Shown here: piece by piece, positions 17,228 through 62,704 of the stretch | Position numbering within the stretch: position 1 is the first letter of the stretch | How the letters are laid out: every line of letters starts with the position of its first letter | Source: a virus | Length of the DNA: 64,000 nt | Direction: 5' to 3' (one strand) | IMG/VR virus record: IMGVR_UViG_3300012001_000006 | Coordinates: 17,266 to 81,265 of that record | Notes under the pieces: model-generated | Database searches by the model: none | What the model was told of the DNA's origin: nothing | Seen by the model: the letters and a program-made list of their open reading frames with translations, nothing else | Made by a program: the position numbers and the translations under genes

Positions 17228-18618
17228 GCTGCCGCCTTCAGGATTGCCGCGCCCCGCTTTGCAGCCTCTTCTTGAGCGAAGACTTGCGCCAGTGTGTCCG
17301 CGACCGTTTTATCCTTGCGCAATTCAACGTAGCGCGGAAGGAAGAGCGAGTGCAGATCGCCTTCTTTCGACGGCCGCATGACACCGGTCGCCTTGACAGC
17401 CATGATGGTGCCGAGCAGCGCTGCGCGGTTGTCACTTATCTCCTTACGCTTCGCATCCTTGAAGCCGGACACGGACACGCGCAGTTGACCGCAGGACGTT
17501 TCAGTGATGACCGACCCGAAGGTGGCCGCGTTCTTGCCGTTGCCTGGTTCGAAGCCGACGATTTTCAGATCGACGACGAACTCCAGCTTCAGCTTGACCT
17601 GATCCTTTGATGTCGCGTCGCGCCAAATCGCCGTCATCTTTTTAAGGACGACGCCCTCTTTGCCGAGCGCCAGCAGTTCGGCATAGTATTCGTACGCCGC
17701 AGCCAGGCTCTTGACGATGCGCGTCGGGATGAGGCGTACCAGCGACGCAGGGCCGATCGCCGCTTCGCGTATTTGCGTGATGAGGCCCGTCAGGCGATTC
17801 TTGTACGGATCGAGGTACTGGCCCTTCGGTTTGACCGATGTCAGCGGAATCTGATCCCACACCAGCAGCACCGGCTTTTCGCCAGGGCCGAAGTCGCCGC
17901 CCTTGAGGACGCTGTTCAGAATGCCGTTGCCGATTTCACGCGCCAGGACAACGCCGTCGCGCTCGACGACCACTTCGCCATGACTTTGCGTGGAGCGTGG
18001 GAAGGTGAGCTGAATGTCGCCAATCATTTCGTCGAACTTTTCAGTCGGGAACTGGCTGCCTGCGCGCGACGACAGAAACACTTCGCCGTCGTCTTCGTGA
18101 TCGACGTTGAAGAACATGCCGTCCGCCTTCTCTTGCGCGATAACGCCGCCAGCAAAATCCCACTTGCTCAGATCGGTGTCGGTCGGCAGGCAGCAGCGCA
18201 TGTACGGGAAGTCCGGCACCAGGCCAGGAAACGCCTTGTTCGTGGTGTTCTCGCCAAAGCCGGCGCGCAAGTCTTTCAACAGGATGCGCTTGAACAGCTC
18301 CGCAGACTCTTCGCCGAGACGGTTGATTTCGTCCAGAATCGCCGCCTGCATTGCGGTGCCGGTCAGGGCGCGGACACGCATCTGGTCAAGGATCTCCCAC
18401 GTCTTCGCGTCGAACTGACCGGCGCCAGGTGCGGTGCGTTCCGGTATCTTCTTGACGCCGTAGGTGATCGTCGTGTCGCAGGCGGCCTTCAGCACTTTGC
18501 GCAGGAGGTCGCTGGTGTCGCACTTCTTGAGCATCGCCTCTTTGTCGTTCTTGCCAGGTGTGGCGGCGATCGATTCAATTAAGCCAAAAACCTCGTCGCT
18601 ATTCATAAGTAAGATCAT
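17224..18618 (-). CDS. ATP-dependent DNA ligase
   Basis: A 464-aa ligase of the T4 gp30 type, sealing nicks during phage replication. The adenylation motif is KADG (in AQEKADGMFF, about 164-173). Motifs SSRAG, EVVVERDG, EGVVLKK and KLKLEF follow in the usual order (Ia, III, IV, V). The N-terminal 130 residues are the helical DNA-binding region and the C-terminus is OB-fold-like. The ATG has GGAGG upstream. It is encoded in the replication chain between a hypothetical gene and three small genes. Confidence 0.9.
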   Translation of the reverse strand: MILLMNSDEVFGLIESIAATPGKNDKEAMLKKCDTSDLLRKVLKAACDTTITYGVKKIPERTAPGAGQFDAKTWEILDQMRVRALTGTAMQAAILDEINRLGEESAELFKRILLKDLRAGFGENTTNKAFPGLVPDFPYMRCCLPTDTDLSKWDFAGGVIAQEKADGMFFNVDHEDDGEVFLSSRAGSQFPTEKFDEMIGDIQLTFPRSTQSHGEVVVERDGVVLAREIGNGILNSVLKGGDFGPGEKPVLLVWDQIPLTSVKPKGQYLDPYKNRLTGLITQIREAAIGPASLVRLIPTRIVKSLAAAYEYYAELLALGKEGVVLKKMTAIWRDATSKDQVKLKLEFVVDLKIVGFEPGNGKNAATFGSVITETSCGQLRVSVSGFKDAKRKEISDNRAALLGTIMAVKATGVMRPSKEGDLHSLFLPRYVELRKDKTVADTLAQVFAQEEAAKRGAAILKAAA

Positions 18619-19799: not shown

Positions 19800-19835
19800 A
19801 TTCAGCTCTCCCGCGCATTTGACGCTTCACTCGAT

Positions 19836-53971: not shown

Positions 53972-55249
53972 CTATCGAGACAGGCCGCCAATATCAACCT
54001 TCCGCACCGGAAATTCCAGGTCGATGCAATATCCGCCAGCATCAGCGGAGTGTTCTACGCCGGCGGCTTTATCCACATCGCGCGAACCCTTTTTGTAGAT
54101 CGTTTGTTCCAGGGCGTTGATGAAGTGCTTGCACCGCTCATCGACGCGCATCCTGATGTTGCCATTGGCTGCACGCAACATCCGGTTCACGGCATTCACG
54201 CGGTCAGCGACGGCCGGATGCTTCCGGCGGTACTTGACGCGCTTGAAGCCCTTCTCGCGCAGGATGTCCACGTCGGTCTCGCCGCGGGCATGTTGTCGGG
54301 AGCCGCCGGCCGGATCGGGGTAGATGACGATCTGAAGCTGGTTGCGCCAGTAGCGCTTCTCCAGCTCCTCGCAAATCTCTTCAGTGTTGGATCCAAACAG
54401 CACGATTTCGTCGACCGCCCACAGTTCGCCGTTGTCCTGCGGCTGGAAGATCACGGTAGACATTGGGTCGATGTTGAAGTCCATCCCCACCCAGATCGGC
54501 AGCTTCGGGTTGAAGGCGTACTTGCCGACGTGTTCGCTGCGCTCGAACGGATAGTAGACGCGGCCGGACATGGTTTCGAAGCTGGCTTCGAACTCCTGCT
54601 TGAACGACTTCTCGTCCATGTCTTCGCGGGCCGCCTCGATTTCGGACAGCGGGATGAACGGCGACGTGATGGTCGGGAACTGCCAGGACTCCCACAGCTC
54701 CTTCTTGACGGCCATCGGATCTTGGCCGCGCTTGTACAGGTCGTAGAGGTAGTTGTATGCCTTCGGCGTGCCGATGAAGATGGCCTGGCCGCGGCGATCC
54801 GCCAGGGTCGGGCGCAAGACTTTCGTCCAGGTGTCTTCCGAGATGTCCTGAAACTCATCCAGCACAAGGAAGTCGACACCCACGCCGCGCAATGAGTCCG
54901 GCTTGTCGGCGCCCTTCAGCTCGATACGGGTGCCGTTGACCAGCGTGATCGCCAGGGTCGTTTCATTGATCTTGCGAATCCACTTCTTCGGAATGGCGTC
55001 CAGCAGGTCGATCCACATAATCTGCTTCGCCATCCGGTACGTTGGAGCGACGTACCAGATTTTGCGCTTCTTGACTTTGGCGCGCGTGATGATGAGGACG
55101 CGCGAGAGCGCGGTCTTGCCCCACCGGCGGCCAGCGACCACAACGCGAAAACGCGCTTTGGACTTGTAGACCTCCATCTGCTTCGTGTGCAGACTAAGCG
55201 TGCTGCGGGCCGCCACGTTATTCTTCGCCCTCGTTGACGATCCCGTCAT
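53972..55249 (-). CDS. terL: Terminase large subunit
   Basis: A 425-aa packaging motor and nuclease. Walker A VVAGRRWGKTALSRV (about 32-46) is of the classical GRRxGKT terminase type. Walker B is FLVLDEFQDIS. The nuclease domain shows VGMDFNIDPMSTV and YPDPAGGSRQ with the expected acidic residues. The start at 55249 overlaps the small subunit gene by 32 bp and has GAGGG upstream. Confidence 0.94.
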   Translation of the reverse strand: MTGSSTRAKNNVAARSTLSLHTKQMEVYKSKARFRVVVAGRRWGKTALSRVLIITRAKVKKRKIWYVAPTYRMAKQIMWIDLLDAIPKKWIRKINETTLAITLVNGTRIELKGADKPDSLRGVGVDFLVLDEFQDISEDTWTKVLRPTLADRRGQAIFIGTPKAYNYLYDLYKRGQDPMAVKKELWESWQFPTITSPFIPLSEIEAAREDMDEKSFKQEFEASFETMSGRVYYPFERSEHVGKYAFNPKLPIWVGMDFNIDPMSTVIFQPQDNGELWAVDEIVLFGSNTEEICEELEKRYWRNQLQIVIYPDPAGGSRQHARGETDVDILREKGFKRVKYRRKHPAVADRVNAVNRMLRAANGNIRMRVDERCKHFINALEQTIYKKGSRDVDKAAGVEHSADAGGYCIDLEFPVRKVDIGGLSR

Positions 55250-55856
55250 CTGGATCGCCCTCAAGCCCGATTTGACCCACTGCTACGTCATCTAGGTCGC
55301 TGATGTCGCGGTCGCGCAGCTCTTTGATCTCTTCTGCGGTCAGTTCCGAGATAATCAGTTCTGGCAACTCGTCTGGATCCACCGCGTCCGGCCGGTCGAG
55401 ACCGAGAATGGCGAAGCGTTCGATTCGCATTCTTGCCAGGATGCTACCCGCCAGGTCGAGCGACTTCAGGGCCGGCTGGATCGACGCGAGCGGGGTGCCG
55501 GCCTTCTTCGCCGACAGGATCTCATTCCAGGTCAGGCGCGAGATCGCCGCGGCCATCTTGTAATGCTCTTCCTTCGTCTCGGTGATTCTGGCCACCAGGA
55601 TCGTCACCTCATTGACGGTCGTGCGCGCGATGGCCGCCGCGGCGCGCTTCTTGGCCGCATCGACGGTTGCGCCCTGCTTGACGCCGTGTTTGGTGAAGTA
55701 GCGCAAGAAGGTCGTTTCGCTCCGCGCGTACTTCTTGGCGAGACCTTCGAGCGTGGTGACGCCGCCTTCCCAAAGCGCGGTCGCTTCCGCCCACTGCTTC
55801 GGTGTCATGCGGGTCTTCGTCTTCGGTGTAGCTGCTGCTGGTTTCGGTGCTTTCAC
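55218..55856 (-). CDS. terS: Terminase small subunit-like protein
   Basis: A 212-aa protein. The GTG at 55856 has AAGG upstream and lies below a leader terminator. Residues about 17-60 form a helix-turn-helix (TPKQWAEATALWEGGVTTLE then GLAKKYARSETTFLRYF), as in small terminases that bind pac or cos. The middle is an oligomerisation helix and the tail is very acidic (EEIKELRDRDISDLDD). It overlaps terL. Confidence 0.8.
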   Translation of the reverse strand: MKAPKPAAATPKTKTRMTPKQWAEATALWEGGVTTLEGLAKKYARSETTFLRYFTKHGVKQGATVDAAKKRAAAAIARTTVNEVTILVARITETKEEHYKMAAAISRLTWNEILSAKKAGTPLASIQPALKSLDLAGSILARMRIERFAILGLDRPDAVDPDELPELIISELTAEEIKELRDRDISDLDDVAVGQIGLEGDPDDGIVNEGEE

Positions 55857-55871
55857 AACATACCTTTCGGC

Positions 55872-55899
55872 CAAAAAAAAGGGCGCGGAGAGAGCGCCC
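55872..55899 (-). terminator. Terminator in the leader of the packaging operon
   Basis: The stem GGGCGC/GCGCCC with a 7-nt loop is followed by eight Ts on the minus strand. It stands only about 30-60 bases after a predicted transcription start and just before terS. Confidence 0.8.
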
Positions 55900-55936
55900 A
55901 TGTAGGAACGGTGATGTTGAATCCGCCCAGATGGTC

Positions 55937-56357: not shown

Positions 56358-56711
56358 TTATTCGAGCAACTCCAAAACACCGGAAGTGAAATCATCAAAC
56401 ACAGCGGAATCCATTTCTGCGCCTTCGATAATCTCAGACACAGCGGCAGCGGAATCCTTTGCGACGCGCATGTGGGCATGTCCTTCGCCGGTCGCCTCGA
56501 TCACCTGACGCTGCCGGCCCCTCCTCTTCTCGATGCCTTTCTTGAAGATCAAGCCGTGCGCGATCAAGGCGCGGATCGAGAATTGCAGACTTTGCTTGGA
56601 GGTCTCGTAGCGCACGCGCTCCAGAATTTCATCCAGGTCGGCTGGCATATCGAGACCATTACCGGCGCTAATTACGCGCAGCAATTCAGACTGTTTGGTT
56701 GTCAGGTGCAT
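56358..56711 (-). CDS. Winged-helix protein (117 aa)
   Basis: The ATG at 56711 lies inside the end of the GNAT-like gene. LTTKQSELLRVISAGNGLDM followed by RYETSKQSLQFSIRALIAHG and a KKGIEKRRGRQRQVIE wing fits a MarR-like winged-helix. It is the last gene of the ParB-ABC-GNAT operon and may regulate it or bind DNA for it. Confidence 0.65.
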   Translation of the reverse strand: MHLTTKQSELLRVISAGNGLDMPADLDEILERVRYETSKQSLQFSIRALIAHGLIFKKGIEKRRGRQRQVIEATGEGHAHMRVAKDSAAAVSEIIEGAEMDSAVFDDFTSGVLELLE

Positions 56712-57678
56712 CTTCTTCTTCCCAAGCGAGGGCAATAAGGGGTGTGAGTGCTTCAATTGCGGCTAGTTGGGCGCGTGTGGCCGCCAAATCAAGTCGCTCG
56801 TGGGTTGCCTGGTTGTCGAACGCAATTAGCGGCAGGCGGGCTGGTATCGCGTCTTCGCGACCGAAGTCGGGGTTGGTGAAAACGCCGTACAGCGGGCTGG
56901 CAAACACTAGCTGCTGCAACGATCGCAGGAGGTAGGGAACTTCCATCGCATCGACGCGTGACGTGCCGTTAGCGCGGTTGTCGCCCGACTTCTCCATCGA
57001 GGAGCATTTGTAATAGAACTTGCGCATGTCCGCGATGCACTTGTCGCGTGCGAATGGCGGCAACGCGTTCAGCTCTTCCAGCACACCCACGTAATCCGAT
57101 GGCGTACAGGTGAACCATCGCCGAAACCATTCCAGGCCGCTGATGTAGCTCGACGATCGCTTCGGCTTGGTGAACAGCATCCCTGCCTTGGAGGCGAACG
57201 GGTTGAACTTCGACATCGACGACTGGAATTCGACATAGCGGCAGCCAGTCATTCGCATCATGAGGTTCTGCATCCGGTACGCGATGCCGGCGCCGCGGAA
57301 GACCGTATCTAGCACCAGACGACTGTTCGTGCAGGAGAAGGCATTGATCCAGATCGCGCGGTGACGGTTGATCAGCTTCGTGTCGCGTCCATTCACGTTG
57401 GGGCGCAGGTTGGTGAACACCTCGTTGCGGCCCGACAGGAGCATCTTCGGTACGGTCATGACACCCACCCCGATCACCTGCCCGCGCAGCACGCAGCGGA
57501 AGATTTTCGGGCCGATCCCCAAGTTCTCCGCCTTGTAGTGCAGTTCGTGCAGAAGGTTCCAGTCATCCTTGGTGCCGCGCTCGACGTAAATCTCAGGCAG
57601 CAGCGAGAAGGTGTGATTCTTCGGCACTTCATGACGCGTGATGTGCCAGTCCGCGGTGTCGGCAACGAGATGACTCAC
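56686..57678 (-). CDS. GNAT-like acyltransferase-fold protein
   Basis: A 330-aa protein. Residues about 40-175 have the GNAT layout: ELHYKAENLGIGPKIFRCVL, the beta strand VIGVGVMTVPKMLL, INAFSCTNSRLVLDTVFRGA with GIAYRMQNLMMRM (CoA-binding turn region), and FQSSMSKFNPFASKAGML as the late beta-alpha element. The C-terminal half is unassigned. In known proteins this GNAT type is found fused or paired with an ABC ATPase (the COG2401 arrangement), matching the ABC gene in this operon. Substrate unknown; Mu Mom, a DNA-modifying GNAT, is a possible analogue. GTG start in a GTGA overlap. Confidence 0.65.
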   Translation of the reverse strand: MSHLVADTADWHITRHEVPKNHTFSLLPEIYVERGTKDDWNLLHELHYKAENLGIGPKIFRCVLRGQVIGVGVMTVPKMLLSGRNEVFTNLRPNVNGRDTKLINRHRAIWINAFSCTNSRLVLDTVFRGAGIAYRMQNLMMRMTGCRYVEFQSSMSKFNPFASKAGMLFTKPKRSSSYISGLEWFRRWFTCTPSDYVGVLEELNALPPFARDKCIADMRKFYYKCSSMEKSGDNRANGTSRVDAMEVPYLLRSLQQLVFASPLYGVFTNPDFGREDAIPARLPLIAFDNQATHERLDLAATRAQLAAIEALTPLIALAWEEEDAPDNQTV

Positions 57679-58013
57679 GGCCGCTCGCCACTGATTGCTG
57701 CGCGCGTGCGTGGCCCGACTTTCATCTCGGCTAACGCTTGCGCGACAAACACCGGCGCGACGCCGGCGCCATTACACAAGATCGACGATTCGCCGACCAG
57801 ATACGGCCCGCCGCGCGTGACGAGACCGCCGCTTGCGTATATCTGGCCTGGCAGGCCGCCTGGGCGCGGAAGGATGTTGAACGGCGGGTTGATGGTGATC
57901 TTGCCGCGGGTCTGGTCGATCTTGTTCTGAATCGCCTTGCGGGCCTGGTCAGTGACGCCTGGTGCGGTCTGAATGAAGCCTTCGAGCCAGTAGGTGAATT
58001 GTTCCGGTGTCAT
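57675..58013 (-). CDS. Hypothetical protein (112 aa)
   Basis: Starts MTPEQFTYWLEGFIQTAPG, a short N-terminal helix common in small phage proteins. A Gly/Pro-rich part follows (NPPFNILPRPGGLPGQIYAS). It overlaps both the upstream membrane gene (ATGA) and the GNAT-like gene (GTGA). No function assigned; the overlaps place it firmly in the operon. Confidence 0.6.
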   Translation of the reverse strand: MTPEQFTYWLEGFIQTAPGVTDQARKAIQNKIDQTRGKITINPPFNILPRPGGLPGQIYASGGLVTRGGPYLVGESSILCNGAGVAPVFVAQALAEMKVGPRTRAAISGERP

Positions 58014-58297
58014 GGTGAGCCTTCTGTAGTTTGAGGATCGCGACGCTTGGCCTCGATCACGTTGCTGTAGAACCAAATCGAAAACGCGATGCCGCACGCA
58101 CCGCCGGCGGCGCAGGTTGTGAAGACGGTCATGTCGCCGGACGCCGCGTACCGGATGAACAGGAAGTTCGCCATCGAGATGCCGAACGAGGTCAGAATGG
58201 CGGCCAGGTAGCGCCCTTGATTGACGTTCTTCGACTGCAAGCCAAGCAGAAAGACGACAAAGAAGTTACTGACGAACATCAGCAGGTAGTCGGTCAT
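58010..58297 (-). CDS. Small membrane protein (95 aa)
   Basis: Three likely membrane helices: LLMFVSNFFVVFLLGL (about 5-20), LAAILTSFGISMANFLFI (about 31-48) and GGACGIAFSIWFYSNVI (about 66-82). A hydrophilic tail ends the protein. Same size class as the membrane protein at 16058-16378. It could anchor operon products at the inner membrane; unproven. Confidence 0.65.
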   Translation of the reverse strand: MTDYLLMFVSNFFVVFLLGLQSKNVNQGRYLAAILTSFGISMANFLFIRYAASGDMTVFTTCAAGGACGIAFSIWFYSNVIEAKRRDPQTTEGSP

Positions 58298-58407
58298 GCG
58301 AAATGTCTCCGGCCGCGACCGTCCCTGAAGTCGATCTGACGCTCCGCCACCAGTTTGGTGAGCGCGCGGCGGCAGTAGGTGTACGCGCTGAAGAAAAAGA
58401 TGCTCAT
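58294..58407 (-). CDS. Very small basic protein (37 aa)
   Basis: A 37-codon frame linking the thioredoxin and membrane genes by ATGA overlaps on both sides. Product MSIFFFSAYTYCRRALTKLV then AERQIDFRDGRGRRHFA: hydrophobic start and Arg-rich end. The coupling supports expression. Confidence 0.5.
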   Translation of the reverse strand: MSIFFFSAYTYCRRALTKLVAERQIDFRDGRGRRHFA

Positions 58408-58733
58408 CGGATGCCCAATATGGAGAGGTGATGTTTGATGTCGGTCATGGCGCCAACCTGGCACGTCAGCCCGACCTGCCGGCCCTTGCTGTAGACCAGA
58501 ATGCTTGGCACCGAGCGCACGGATTCCAAATTCGTCGTTCGGTAGTTCGCGCCGGCGTCGATGATGCAGAGCCGGAAGTCCAGCAATTGCGACAGCTCCT
58601 CAAGCAACGGCTTTACCCGCTGACATGGGGCGCAGGTCGGGCTGGAGAACAGCACAACGACCGGCTCCTTGTACGAAGCCATCAACACGTCATCCAGAAA
58701 GGTGGCGTCGGTAACTTGGACTACTTCTCGCAT
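58404..58733 (-). CDS. Thioredoxin-like protein
   Basis: A 109-aa thioredoxin fold with active site SSPTCAPCQRVKPLL (Cys-Ala-Pro-Cys, about 31-34) and a cis-Pro in VRSVPSILVY. It could act as a reductant for an enzyme of this operon or of nucleotide metabolism, or as a processivity factor as in T7. GAGGGG precedes the ATG; it overlaps the ABC gene by 13 bp. Confidence 0.87.
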   Translation of the reverse strand: MREVVQVTDATFLDDVLMASYKEPVVVLFSSPTCAPCQRVKPLLEELSQLLDFRLCIIDAGANYRTTNLESVRSVPSILVYSKGRQVGLTCQVGAMTDIKHHLSILGIR

Positions 58734-59380
58734 GATTTGAACCCCTCTGGCGTGCGGACGATTTGGACTTTCTCGCGGTACTTCTTGTTGATTTGCAGCG
58801 TAGGTGCCAGGTCAGCAACCATGTCCGAGTGGGTGGTCGCGACGATCAGCGTGGCGCCGACACTGCGCGCGATCTTCTGCATGTTGAAGGCGACGTTGAC
58901 CGCCACGGTGCGATCCAGCACCGCCAGGAACTCGTCAGCGAACCAGACCTTCGACTGCGACTCGATCGCTTTGGCGAGCCGGAACCGGTAGCGCTGGCCG
59001 TCCGACAGTTGGGCCGGCTTGCGCAGCCAGATATAGGCGTCGTTGATGCCGACCATGCCCATGATGTTGGTGCCTTCGTTGGTCGTTTTGCCGATCTGGT
59101 CGATCAGCGGCTTGTCCAGCAGTTCGATTTCGTCGATGCTGACCACATCGAGGCCGCCGGCTTCCATCTGGGCGCGCAGCTCGCGCAGCAGCAGCGACTT
59201 ACCTCCGCCGGACTCGCCGGTGATGTACACCACTTCGCCCTGCTCGATGTCCAGCTCAAGGTTGTCGAACACGACGAACTCTTTGCTGTCCAGGCCAAGC
59301 CCGAATGCTTCTGCGATCTCAAGGACGCGCGGCGTGCGCTCCACCCGCGTCTCGAAGCGTTTGTTGATTAGATATTTCAT
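58721..59380 (-). CDS. ABC-type ATPase
   Basis: A 219-aa soluble ABC ATPase domain with Walker A ITGESGGGKSLLLREL, signature LSDGQRYRFRLAKAIE, Walker B SKVWFADEF and H-loop ATTHSDM. No membrane domain is attached, so it is not a normal transporter. This kind pairs with a GNAT domain in COG2401-type proteins. The ATG overlaps the ParB-like stop, and an operator-like palindrome lies just upstream within the end of that gene. Confidence 0.87.
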   Translation of the reverse strand: MKYLINKRFETRVERTPRVLEIAEAFGLGLDSKEFVVFDNLELDIEQGEVVYITGESGGGKSLLLRELRAQMEAGGLDVVSIDEIELLDKPLIDQIGKTTNEGTNIMGMVGINDAYIWLRKPAQLSDGQRYRFRLAKAIESQSKVWFADEFLAVLDRTVAVNVAFNMQKIARSVGATLIVATTHSDMVADLAPTLQINKKYREKVQIVRTPEGFKSCEK

Positions 59381-60054
59381 GCAGTCACCACTGACTTATC
59401 AACAGGAGCAAAATGTTTCACGAATTCGACGAAGGCTTCGGCGCCGGTCTTGCCGGTCTCGCCTTCGAGCTGCGCCATGAAGATCGCCACAAACCGCTCG
59501 TCTTTACCCTTGATCGACTTGAAGCCGAGCGCCTTGGAGATCTGAACCTCTTTTTCGTCGACCGCGGCAAGGGTGGCGACAGTCTCGTCGGTCTGCCGGA
59601 CGACCGCGGCGTCCAGGTCGTCAACGAAGGCGCCGACGTTCATCTCGCCCATGTCGGCAACCATGAAGTCCAGCTCCTTCTTGTCGAAGATGCCGTCCAT
59701 GTCGAAGGACAGGTCGGCCAGTTCTTTCTGAAGGATGTCGGTGTCGATGTTGGAGATCGCGACGCGGTTGTCGGCCAGACGGTATGCCCGTTCCGCCTCC
59801 ACTGTCAGCCCACTGATGACCTCCACCGGCACCTGCCTCATTCCCATGCTGATTGCGGCAAGTCGGCGACCGTGACCGGCCAGGATGATGCCGGCGGCGT
59901 TGACCACGATCGGATTGCCCACCCATCCAAACCTGTTGATGGATTTGGCGATCTTCTCAACCTGCTTTTCGTCGTGGACTTTGGCGTTCAGTTCGTACGG
60001 GAAGATCGTATCGATGTCACGCAACTCGGTTTTTGCCTTTGTAATTTTGGTCAC
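59377..60054 (-). CDS. ParB-like protein 2 (225 aa)
   Basis: The N-terminal 110 residues are a ParB/sulfiredoxin-fold domain: ELNAKVHDEKQVEKIAKSIN, NPIVVNAAGIILAGHGRRLA (the GHGRR nucleotide-binding motif) and LADNRVAISNIDTDILQKEL. In phages such domains often accompany methyltransferases or other modifying enzymes. The C-terminal half is helical and unassigned. GTG start just after the small Zn-ribbon gene. Confidence 0.83.
   Translation of the reverse strand: MTKITKAKTELRDIDTIFPYELNAKVHDEKQVEKIAKSINRFGWVGNPIVVNAAGIILAGHGRRLAAISMGMRQVPVEVISGLTVEAERAYRLADNRVAISNIDTDILQKELADLSFDMDGIFDKKELDFMVADMGEMNVGAFVDDLDAAVVRQTDETVATLAAVDEKEVQISKALGFKSIKGKDERFVAIFMAQLEGETGKTGAEAFVEFVKHFAPVDKSVVTA
59383..59397 (-). 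promoter_or_regulatory. Operator-like palindrome at the ParB/ABC junction
   Basis: AAGTCAGTGGTGACT (minus strand), preceded by TTGAT, lies within the last codons of the ParB-like gene. A -10 would overlap the ABC start codon, so it may be an operator or a chance coding match. Confidence 0.35.
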
Positions 60055-60055
60055 G

Positions 60056-60232
60056 CTATGCCGCCTTTTTGAACATGATTGTCTTCAGGTCGTGAACGGT
60101 CAGCGCCTCGCTCTCGTCCTCCCCCTCGTAATTGCTACCGTTATCGCAGTCATCGCATTGGAACGGATCGAACTCCGCATTGATGCAGGAGTCGCAGTAG
60201 TCGTACCCCTTGCCGGCGCAGCGTTGTGCCAT
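60056..60232 (-). CDS. Small zinc-ribbon-like protein (58 aa)
   Basis: A 58-aa product with Cys pairs in CAGKGYDYCDSC and FQCDDCD, likely one zinc site, followed by an acidic stretch (YEGEDESEAL) and a helical end. It lies immediately after the ParB-like stop and just before the next GTG. Function unknown. Confidence 0.65.
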   Translation of the reverse strand: MAQRCAGKGYDYCDSCINAEFDPFQCDDCDNGSNYEGEDESEALTVHDLKTIMFKKAA

Positions 60233-60886
60233 TTATGCCTCTGCGTTACGAAGAAGGTGAACCAGCGCGTTGCCGGCATTGGTGAGCGAGTCCTCGTCCT
60301 GGAAGCGTTGCTGCTTCATGACTTTCTCGATCTGTTCGGTAATGACCGACACGTCGCCCGAAGGCACCTTGAAACGCATGATTTGGTGCGTCTGAATCAC
60401 GCGTTCGGTCGGCAATTTGCTTGGGGGTGTGCTGTCGTCGTCAAGATCGAGGTCATCGAGCGCTATATTCACACTTGAGAAGATCGACTGAAATTCAGAG
60501 TCGGAATAAGGCAAGAAAGAGCCTAGTTCTTCAACCCCGCCCAGACTTTCGAGGAGTTCAGCCAATTGAAGCGTGTCGTCGTTACCGTAGCGCCCGTTGT
60601 CCGCGATGCCGATCTCTTTGGCTTGCTTGTCGCTGATCCGGCCGAGGTTGATGATCGGTACGGGGTTGATCTTGAGGCGCAGCGCGGAGTCCCGACGATG
60701 TTCGCCGCCGACGATCTCCAACTGGCCGCTGGCAAGCTCGCGAACGATCACCGGCTTGAACATGCCGAAGCGTTTGATTGATTCGTCAATCTTGACTTCG
60801 TTCTCCGGCGCGACGCGGTTTGTGTTCCAAGGGTTCGGACACAACGACGCTGGATCGGCGGTGGTTTGTGTGTACTGTTGCTGCAT
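60233..60886 (-). CDS. ParB-like protein 1 (217 aa)
   Basis: The N-terminal 115 residues match ParB: NPWNTNRVAPENEVKIDESI, PVIVRELASGQLEIVGGEHR (GGEHRR motif) and IADNGRYGNDDTLQLAELL. The C-terminal 100 residues carry a tail (SKLPTERVIQTHQIMRFKV) that often occurs in such phage ParB proteins. First gene of the operon; its promoter shares an operator with the divergent helicase. Confidence 0.83.
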   Translation of the reverse strand: MQQQYTQTTADPASLCPNPWNTNRVAPENEVKIDESIKRFGMFKPVIVRELASGQLEIVGGEHRRDSALRLKINPVPIINLGRISDKQAKEIGIADNGRYGNDDTLQLAELLESLGGVEELGSFLPYSDSEFQSIFSSVNIALDDLDLDDDSTPPSKLPTERVIQTHQIMRFKVPSGDVSVITEQIEKVMKQQRFQDEDSLTNAGNALVHLLRNAEA

Positions 60887-60909: not shown

Positions 60910-60941
60910 TTGATAATAAGTCATTTGTGACTTATACTTTA
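60910..60941. promoter_or_regulatory. Divergent promoters sharing one perfect operator
   Basis: The palindrome ATAAGTCATTTGTGACTTAT (60916-60935, 8-bp perfect arms) fills both spacers: plus strand TTGATA-17-TATACT toward the helicase, minus strand TAAAGT-17-TATTAT toward the ParB operon. One protein binding here would control both units. Confidence 0.75.
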
Positions 60942-60967: not shown

Positions 60968-62704
60968 ATGACCGAAATAATCACAATTGCATCGAGCGCC
61001 GTCACCGCGAAGCTCCATAAACCGAGCCGCGAGGTGAAGCTGGAGGTGCAGGCGATCCTTTCGTACAACGTCGATGGGGCCGAACACTCGATCTCCTTCA
61101 AGCGCGGATCGTGGGATGGCCGAAGCAGCTTTTTCAACTTCAAGCTCGGCACCTTCCCCGCCGGCTTCATCCATTTCGTCGGTGCGAAGCTGCGCCAGAA
61201 GGGTTACACGGTCAATCAGGTCAGAAAGCCCTTACCGACCCCGCTTGGCCCTCTCAATCCCGTCGTAGACAGCTTCGGTAACGACCCGCGCTACGACTAT
61301 CAGCCCGAAGTGGTCGCCCGTCTGGTCAAACATGGTCAGATCATTGCGCAAGTGGCGACCGGTGGCGGCAAGTCCCGTATCGCGCGCATGGCGTACGCCA
61401 GGCTCGGTCTCCCTACCCTGTTCCTGACCACGCGCGGCATCCTGATGTACCAGATGAAGGACACGTTCGAGCGCGACCTTGGCGTGAAGGTGTCCGTGTT
61501 GGGTGACGGCCAGTTCGGTCACACGATCATCGAGAACGGCGTCGAGAAAACCGCCGTGCGCAAGATGTCGGTCGGCATGGTGCAGACCTTAGTCTCTCGA
61601 CTGGAAGAAAAGACAGTCGAGAGCGAACTCGATCGGATGATGGACGCGCTGATCAAACGCGAGCTGAAGCACTCCAACGCCCTACGAAAGACCCTCGAAG
61701 CAAAGGAAGTGCCGGAGCCTGATATTCGCGCGGCGCTTGTTGCGGCGGACAAAATAGTTGAGGCCGCTCGACCGACAGCGAAACAGATGACCGCGGCTGC
61801 GGCCGTCAAGGTTCACGCGCACATGGCCGATCGCGCCAAGACAATCAGCCTGCTCGGCATGTTCGGGCTGGTGATCCTGGAAGAAGCGCATGAGGCGGCT
61901 GGCAACAGCTACTACGAAATTCTTCAGCATTGCAAGAACGCCCACTACCGCCTGGCCCTGACCGCCACGCCGTTCATGAAGGACTCCGAAGAGTCGAACA
62001 TGCGCCTAATGGCTTGCTCCGGCCCGATCGCGATCAAAGTTACCGAGAAGATGCTGATCGACCGCGGTATCCTGGCACGGCCGCATTTTGAAATCATCCC
62101 GATGGGTATCAAGGCGGGCAAGCTGCACAAGCACACCGCCTGGGCCAGCGCGTACCGACTTGGCATCACCGAAAGCCTCCCGCGCAACACCGCTATCGTG
62201 AACAAGTGCGACCTCATGCGCCAGTACGGCCTGTCGTCAATGGTGCTGATCCAGCAAACCAAGCACGGCGAGATCCTGCTGGAGATGATGATCAGGCGCG
62301 GCTTGCGGGTCGAGTACATCCAGGGCGAGGATGACCAGGAGGGCCGGAAGGCCGCTTTGCGTCGTCTGGCCGCCGGCGAGATCGACGTGCTGATCGGCAC
62401 CACCATCCTCGATGTCGGTGTGGACGTGCCGGCGGTTGGTCATGTCTGCCTGGCCGGCGGTGGCAAAGCGGAAGTCGCGCTGCGTCAGCGCATCGGTCGC
62501 GGCTTGCGTGAAAAGAAGGTCGGCCCCAACCTGTGCTTCGTCACCGACTTCGACGATTCCTTCAATACCCACCTGCGCGACCACGCGAAGCAACGCCTGG
62601 CGATCATCAAAGGTACACCTGGCTTCGACGAGAGCGTGTTGGAGGGCGGCCGCACCTTTAACTTCGAAGCGCTCGGCTATTCCAAAGTCCGGCTGGCCGC
62701 CTAA
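60968..62704 (+). CDS. SF2 helicase (UvsW-like)
   Basis: A 578-aa superfamily 2 helicase. An N-terminal region (about 1-100) with VGAKLRQKGYTVNQVRKP is followed by a Q-type YQPEVVARL, Walker A VATGGGKSRIARMAY, Walker B VILEEAHEAAG (EEAH instead of DEAH), TATPF and the motif VI QRIGRGLREKK. This matches T4 UvsW-type helicases that restart forks and process recombination intermediates. No clear ribosome-binding site. Confidence 0.87.
   Translation: MTEIITIASSAVTAKLHKPSREVKLEVQAILSYNVDGAEHSISFKRGSWDGRSSFFNFKLGTFPAGFIHFVGAKLRQKGYTVNQVRKPLPTPLGPLNPVVDSFGNDPRYDYQPEVVARLVKHGQIIAQVATGGGKSRIARMAYARLGLPTLFLTTRGILMYQMKDTFERDLGVKVSVLGDGQFGHTIIENGVEKTAVRKMSVGMVQTLVSRLEEKTVESELDRMMDALIKRELKHSNALRKTLEAKEVPEPDIRAALVAADKIVEAARPTAKQMTAAAAVKVHAHMADRAKTISLLGMFGLVILEEAHEAAGNSYYEILQHCKNAHYRLALTATPFMKDSEESNMRLMACSGPIAIKVTEKMLIDRGILARPHFEIIPMGIKAGKLHKHTAWASAYRLGITESLPRNTAIVNKCDLMRQYGLSSMVLIQQTKHGEILLEMMIRRGLRVEYIQGEDDQEGRKAALRRLAAGEIDVLIGTTILDVGVDVPAVGHVCLAGGGKAEVALRQRIGRGLREKKVGPNLCFVTDFDDSFNTHLRDHAKQRLAIIKGTPGFDESVLEGGRTFNFEALGYSKVRLAA

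Follow-up and report, generated by a model that had tools for sequence, protein, structure and literature searches.

A ParB–ABC ATPase–GNAT module before the terminase genes of SSU5-type phage-plasmids as a candidate system for ATP-dependent DNA acylation

What do two ParB-like proteins, a soluble ABC ATPase, and a GNAT acyltransferase do together in one operon located just before the terminase genes of a virus, and how many of the companion genes share in this function? The question is raised by ten open reading frames on the minus strand, from position 60886 to position 56358, of a 64,000-nucleotide stretch (positions 17,266 to 81,265 of IMG/VR record IMGVR_UViG_3300012001_000006; hereafter, the window), whose source is an 81-kb virus record of the SSU5/nickie type. 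The answer we favor, with a probability of roughly 0.7, is that the module, recruited by ParB and consuming ATP, acylates phage DNA before it is packaged. It is based on the gene content, homology, the GNAT fold, conserved catalytic motifs, the slot preceding the terminase, and the exchange of a fused form of the enzyme for the DNA modifier Mom, coupled to the tail of ParB.

The original prediction described ten coupled, mostly overlapping genes acting as one system. The coupling is confirmed, since the coordinates match and seven of the nine junctions are overlaps, one is an abutment (ParB1 and a Zn-ribbon-like peptide), and one is a gap of 1 nucleotide (the same peptide and ParB2). The overlaps amount to 4 nucleotides for ParB2/ABC, 13 for ABC/thioredoxin, 4 at each of the junctions thioredoxin/37-residue peptide, 37-residue peptide/membrane protein, membrane protein/hypothetical protein, and hypothetical protein/GNAT, and 26 for GNAT/winged helix; the winged-helix gene probably starts at the ATG at 56711. 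The unity of the ten genes stands in part. In 39 dereplicated IMG/VR loci holding the whole region and selected for the presence of two ParBs, the ABC, and the GNAT (hereafter, the relatives), ParB1, ParB2, ABC, GNAT, and the winged helix were found together in 39/39 cases and in a constant order, which is the outcome of the comparative check of co-occurrence proposed along with the prediction. The presence of the winged helix in all the relatives and the never-changing order are more telling than the counts of the preselected genes. The remaining genes are less faithful companions: 34 of the 39 encode the Zn-ribbon-like peptide, 28 the thioredoxin, 17 the membrane protein, 2 the hypothetical protein, and 0 the 37-residue peptide. 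Because of these conservation counts, ParB1, ParB2, ABC, and GNAT, plus the winged helix, form the core, and the other genes are accessory.

The same core order is kept in SSU5, nickie, BUCTxx99, RHph_X66, and pJN2-26, in which the small genes separating ABC from GNAT are different ones or are missing. More generally, the SSU5-supergroup phage-plasmids (SSU5, Cyrano, nickie, RHEph10, BUCTxx99) share with the window the arrangement helicase / ParB-ParB-ABC-GNAT-winged helix-TerS-TerL (small and large terminase subunits), whereas their accessory genes between ABC and GNAT differ from those of the window and include no thioredoxin in the named phages examined. The ABC is present in all 30 phage records having the GNAT, and the GNAT itself is encoded in 905 PLSDB plasmids, mostly of Klebsiella, E. 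coli, and Acinetobacter.

All the core genes lie on the minus strand. ParB1 (60233..60886, 217 residues) matches PF02195 (9e-9) and phrog_723 (1e-61) and possesses a box-II-like GGEHRR motif. ParB2 (59377..60054, 225 residues) belongs with phrog_930 (1e-74) and also matches phrog_498, a family of ParB-DNA methyltransferases (3e-35). The soluble ABC ATPase (58721..59380, 219 residues; PF00005, 3e-13) is hallmarked by an unusual Walker B region, DEF..V.DR in the place of the usual DEPT..LD; this motif, Walker A, LSxGQ, and the H-loop are kept in 38–39 of the 39 relatives. The winged-helix-like protein (56358..56711, 117 residues; phrog_900, 1e-18) closes the operon.

The presumed catalytic subunit, the GNAT acyltransferase (56686..57678, 330 residues), finds no match in Pfam and falls into phrog_886 (8e-125). 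The name of this family, “ABC transporter ATP-binding subunit”, is wrong and has passed into the RefSeq entries of SSU5, nickie, and RHEph10; the family is one of GNAT acyltransferases. The AlphaFold model (pLDDT 84.6) has a GNAT-fold core with a C-terminal helical extension, and the elements W-x6-HY and R.VLDT.[FY]RG.G, the latter resembling a coenzyme A-binding loop, are retained in 38–39 of the 39 relatives. The closest folds in the PDB are those of dopamine N-acetyltransferase, the NAT10/TmcA cytidine acetyltransferases, which act on nucleic acids, and protein acetyltransferases; the closest viral folds include an ABC-GNAT fusion of Leptospira phage LE4 and a Mom of a Salmonella phage.

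Distant matches of the ABC revealed a widespread phage protein of ~365 residues, phrog_11143 (“ABC-type ATPase fused to a predicted acetyltransferase”, COG2401-like), in which an ABC is fused to a GNAT, with at least 596 fusions of this type in IMG/VR; the link to COG2401 is a database annotation of relatives (H36, H48). One further match, in Acinetobacter phage MD-2021a, is a sulfonate transporter and was discarded as unrelated. The window ABC aligns with the N-terminal half of the fusions at an hhalign E-value of 2e-32 over 187 columns and the window GNAT with their GNAT half at 3e-7 (probability 93%), the motifs DEF..V.DR and W-x6-HY being common to both forms. Hence, judging by sequence profiles, the two proteins are homologous to the two halves of the phage ABC-GNAT fusion. 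The fusion adjoins ParB, usually before the terminase, e.g., in Pasteurella Pmp13, Gordonia Axumite, Leptospira LE4, and Rhodococcus Jace; in Arthrobacter EastWest it is located away from the terminase, and the form found in Lactococcus P335 is split. Among the best 80 IMG/VR loci, with only eligible loci in the denominators, ParB lies directly upstream in 50/73 and TerL within 5 kb downstream in 33/51; since TerL and ParB were detected with local profiles, these and the following neighbor fractions are lower bounds. The window differs from the fusions in its separate ABC and GNAT genes, two ParBs, the C-terminal helical extension of the GNAT, the extra winged helix, and the accessory insertions. 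The two forms are nevertheless tied together by an SSU5-like locus (L179) bearing the fusion in exactly the slot of the split genes, between ParB1/ParB2 and winged helix/TerS, and sharing with the window 48% identity in the helicase, 48% in ParB1, 40% in ParB2, 49% in the winged helix, 67% in TerL, and 56% in the portal protein.

A second enzyme in the same type of slot is Mom, the methylcarbamoylase of phage Mu (PF25680; PDB 8bv8), which has a GNAT fold with a His-Tyr motif in the same region as the window GNAT. In Mu Mom, this His-Tyr is reported from mutagenesis to be catalytic. HY is present in the window GNAT; the later Asp and Tyr of the Mom alignment find no clear counterpart in the window family, this part having been aligned by eye. 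The membership of the window GNAT in the Mom family was considered and rejected, as PF25680 gave no match at E ≤ 1; six of six Mom proteins tested from the scan described below match this profile at 1e-44 to 1e-61. The Mom genes examined had no adjacent ABC ATPase.

The search with Mu Mom (tblastn) uncovered neighboring ParB and Mom genes in actinophages. A scan with a single seed, Mom of phage Sonny, collected 357 loci representing one clade; in the 61 dereplicated loci among the best 80 of the 357, ParB was found at most 1 kb upstream in 29/37 eligible cases and TerL downstream in 28/34. In Mu-type loci, ParB was found in 0/32, these being near-copies that count as one data point. In one locus (L346, 637-3791), the order is reversed, TerL being upstream of ParB-Mom; therefore, the link to the terminase does not depend on one fixed order.

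The two enzymes also replace each other. Arthrobacter phages EastWest and Sonny share their gene order (identity in the flanks 64%, 80%, and 45%, and in the N-terminal part of ParB 55%), and EastWest carries ABC-GNAT where Sonny carries Mom. The clearest case is a near-isogenic pair, L173 and L329, whose TerL proteins are 97.9% identical and whose flanks comprise 840 bp with 92% and 2396 bp with 87% identity. Their ParBs are 94% identical over residues 1–140; the two sequences cease to align at ParB codon 140 and align again from the gene that follows the enzyme (L173 919-2147 versus L329 841-1644). The swapped stretch consists of a ParB tail plus ABC-GNAT in L173 and of a zinc-ribbon ParB tail plus Mom in L329. 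Weaker pairs of this kind are L184/L286, L184/L320, and L126/L335. The original prediction saw a sign of DNA modification in the pairing of an ABC ATPase with a GNAT, reminiscent of COG2401 and Mom; by inference, it is well supported by the homology to the fusions, the slot shared with Mom, and the Mom swap. On this evidence, the module would work like Mom yet is not Mom.

A CxxC motif is present in the tail of 51/51 Mom-linked ParBs and of 0/50 ABC-GNAT-linked ParBs, the latter ending in a strand-helix-strand-like segment, e.g., FEVAVECDGEEEQEKIYNQLTGDGYKCRILTM. In the tree of the ParB N-domain (128 columns, with many forks unresolved), the Mom and ABC-GNAT classes interleave, implying at least 17 changes, of which at least 8 are forced by supported branches. 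The interleaving, along with the perfect match of tail and enzyme, indicates that the two moved together repeatedly while the N-domain stayed. This joint movement argues, on comparative grounds, for a functional pairing of ParB with its enzyme and for equivalent roles of Mom and ABC-GNAT. The same ParB family occurs fused to adenine DNA methyltransferases (phrog_498), which lack GNAT and ABC and differ from the window in having the methyltransferase joined to ParB itself; the nearest phage relatives of Pmp13 ParB (57–61% identity) are mostly N-domains of DNA methyltransferases. In one locus (L365, 3971-6849), such a ParB-adenine methyltransferase is immediately followed by a DNA-binding protein and the terminase, which makes it a third enzyme type in the slot. 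ParB folds are known to bind different nucleoside triphosphates (PMC12704722), and two ParB-like proteins, DpdB and DndB, take part in DNA modification of other kinds (PMC12839542, PMC12704722). A broader proposal, which we advance tentatively and rate at somewhat short of even odds, is that phage DNA modifiers of different chemistry would have one ParB-type loader as their universal adaptor, comprising a shared N-domain and an exchangeable C-terminal tail specifying the enzyme (zinc ribbon for Mom, strand-helix-strand-like segment for ABC-GNAT, direct fusion for methyltransferases), with ABC-GNAT making, in an ATP-dependent manner, a new acylated base unlike the N6-methylcarbamoyladenine made by Mom.

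The mechanism envisaged for the favored reading is as follows. The ParB proteins would be loaded onto phage DNA and bring in the enzyme via their C-terminal tail; the ABC ATPase would dimerize on ATP and either place the GNAT on DNA or open the helix; and the GNAT would acylate an exocyclic amine of a base in DNA, with an acyl-coenzyme A as the donor. We infer that DNA is the substrate and an acylated base the product, and that ATP and ParB have the roles just outlined. The winged helix is probably part of the modification system. The slot before the terminase suggests expression together with the packaging functions, and modification just before packaging would let virion DNA escape host nucleases; this protective effect would put the module in the role of Mom with a different, ATP-dependent enzyme. 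Evasion of restriction, in line with the original prediction, is plausible.

Several points weigh against DNA acylation. No measurement of modified nucleosides was found in the literature for any phage carrying the module. The comparison of the window GNAT with Mom by hhalign was not significant (probability 1.4% with the broad Mom alignment), and the top 50 PDB folds do not include Mom, while GNATs acting on proteins and small molecules stand high among them. The Mom swap was seen for the fused ABC-GNAT and not for the split form itself, and the ABC of SSU5 and pJN2-26 departs from the signature LSxG[QE]. To our knowledge, Mu Mom is the sole biochemically characterized Mom, the ParB-linked Moms being assigned by homology. 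For DNA of the SSU5 type, the literature search yielded no paper reporting restriction or nanopore data; PMC11780129 deals with other phages.

The presence of RimI, NatF, and HP0935, all protein N-acetyltransferases, among the best PDB folds makes one think of a protein substrate: like the known phage GNATs that modify RNA polymerase (Rac, as cited in PMC7824862), the GNAT might acetylate a protein of the host or the phage (RNA polymerase, terminase, or ribosome), with ABC and ParB as its regulators. Such a role would hardly explain why Mom is exchanged together with the ParB tail and why other members of this ParB family have DNA methyltransferases as partners; hence, it is deemed unlikely, although it is the strongest of the alternatives.

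The slot itself can be read differently, since the position directly before TerS/TerL is kept across unrelated phages: ParB and ABC might load on phage DNA and assist the terminase in choosing or starting packaging, with a regulatory part for the GNAT activity. Against this speak the ParB-enzyme pair of EastWest and Sonny, which is located away from the terminase and adjoins a sliding clamp, the retention of the terminase in L173 and L329 while the enzyme is exchanged, and the nature of the other occupants of the slot, Mom and methyltransferases, which are modifiers and not packaging factors. A packaging accessory is, accordingly, slightly less probable than a protein acetyltransferase. Lower still stands defense or superinfection exclusion, with a ParB nuclease and the ABC ATPase attacking foreign DNA and the GNAT marking self. 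ParB/Srx domains can be nucleases (PMC5512222), and phages living as plasmids (the 905 PLSDB records) would profit from modification plus restriction, but the core is devoid of a recognizable restriction endonuclease and lies in the head/packaging block, not in the lysogeny region. Finally, the database names “ParB-like partition protein” and “ABC transporter” suggest partition of the ParABS type or transport; either function is very improbable, given the departure from canonical ParB architecture (TIGR00180: 35 bits for ParB1 versus a cut-off of 58, no match for ParB2), the lack of ParA in the operon, and an ABC that is soluble, fused to GNAT in relatives, and devoid of a cognate transmembrane subunit, the sole membrane protein being the 95-residue holin-like one, absent in 22/39 relatives.

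The accessory genes, all on the minus strand, deserve a brief account. The Zn-ribbon-like peptide (60056..60232, 58 residues, CxxC motifs) is a common accessory; it is cysteine-rich, and several relatives' copies have a C-terminal “ELxVHELK” segment. A role as a translational activator like Com was considered with regard to the cysteines and found no support. The thioredoxin (58404..58733, 109 residues; PF00085, 5e-13; CAPC site) had been regarded as a redox partner accompanying modification. This claim does not hold, as the thioredoxin and the small genes are accessory insertions: an obligatory redox partner was rejected because the thioredoxin occurs only in part of the close relatives, is not in the modules of SSU5, nickie, and RHph_X66, and was not found near 80 fused ABC-GNAT or 80 Mom loci. 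One Enterococcus Mom gene does have a thioredoxin neighbor; in Enterococcus phage LoneStar (L279, 2474-3306), a small thioredoxin/glutaredoxin gene overlaps one resembling Mom, the second instance in which a redox gene adjoins an acyltransferase. The 37-residue peptide (58294..58407) is not conserved by BLAST, for which 37 residues are hard to detect. It is followed by the small holin-like membrane protein (58010..58297; phrog_7045 “holin”, 3e-15) and the hypothetical protein (57675..58013, 112 residues).

The operon follows a copy of the phage operator, in line with the prediction: in the divergent promoter region, ~30 bp before ParB1, there is a perfect operator copy (60916..60935), the palindrome ATAAGTCA-N4-TGACTTAT. 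The palindrome ATAAGTCAnnnnTGACTTAT has 16 copies in the window against 0.07 expected by shuffling, among them those at 19834, 19868, 33031, 39881, 45848, 53943, 60916, and 62741; these dispersed sites are probably the operator of a master repressor in phage-plasmids of this type. Across the promoter region, a divergent DEAD/DEAH-type helicase is encoded on the plus strand (60968..62704), present in 37/39 relatives and annotated in SSU5, nickie, and X66. Downstream of the operon come the terminase genes, TerS (55218..55901, minus strand), which precedes TerL in all relatives, and its conserved neighbor TerL (53972..55264, minus strand), and then the portal.

The combination had been thought undescribed, which turned out not to be the case: a GNAT with an ABC ATPase was predicted to make an uncharacterized acyl nucleobase modification (Iyer et al. 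2013, as cited in PMC7824862), that paper may already mention ParB, and the SSU5-type module has been annotated piecemeal in databases. What is added to the 2013 prediction is the ParB tail code, the Mom swap, and the split form; no description of these was found in the literature, in which Iyer et al. is represented here by its citation.

The cassette is a core component of a phage-plasmid group that ranks among the commonest. If the DNA is indeed modified, an overlooked base modification may be present in the large amount of long-read data already available, and the module would help phage-plasmids pass restriction barriers. The near-isogenic Mom swap turns the unproven prediction of 2013 into a simple comparison, and the ParB tail code points to a targeting mechanism of general use in phage DNA modification.

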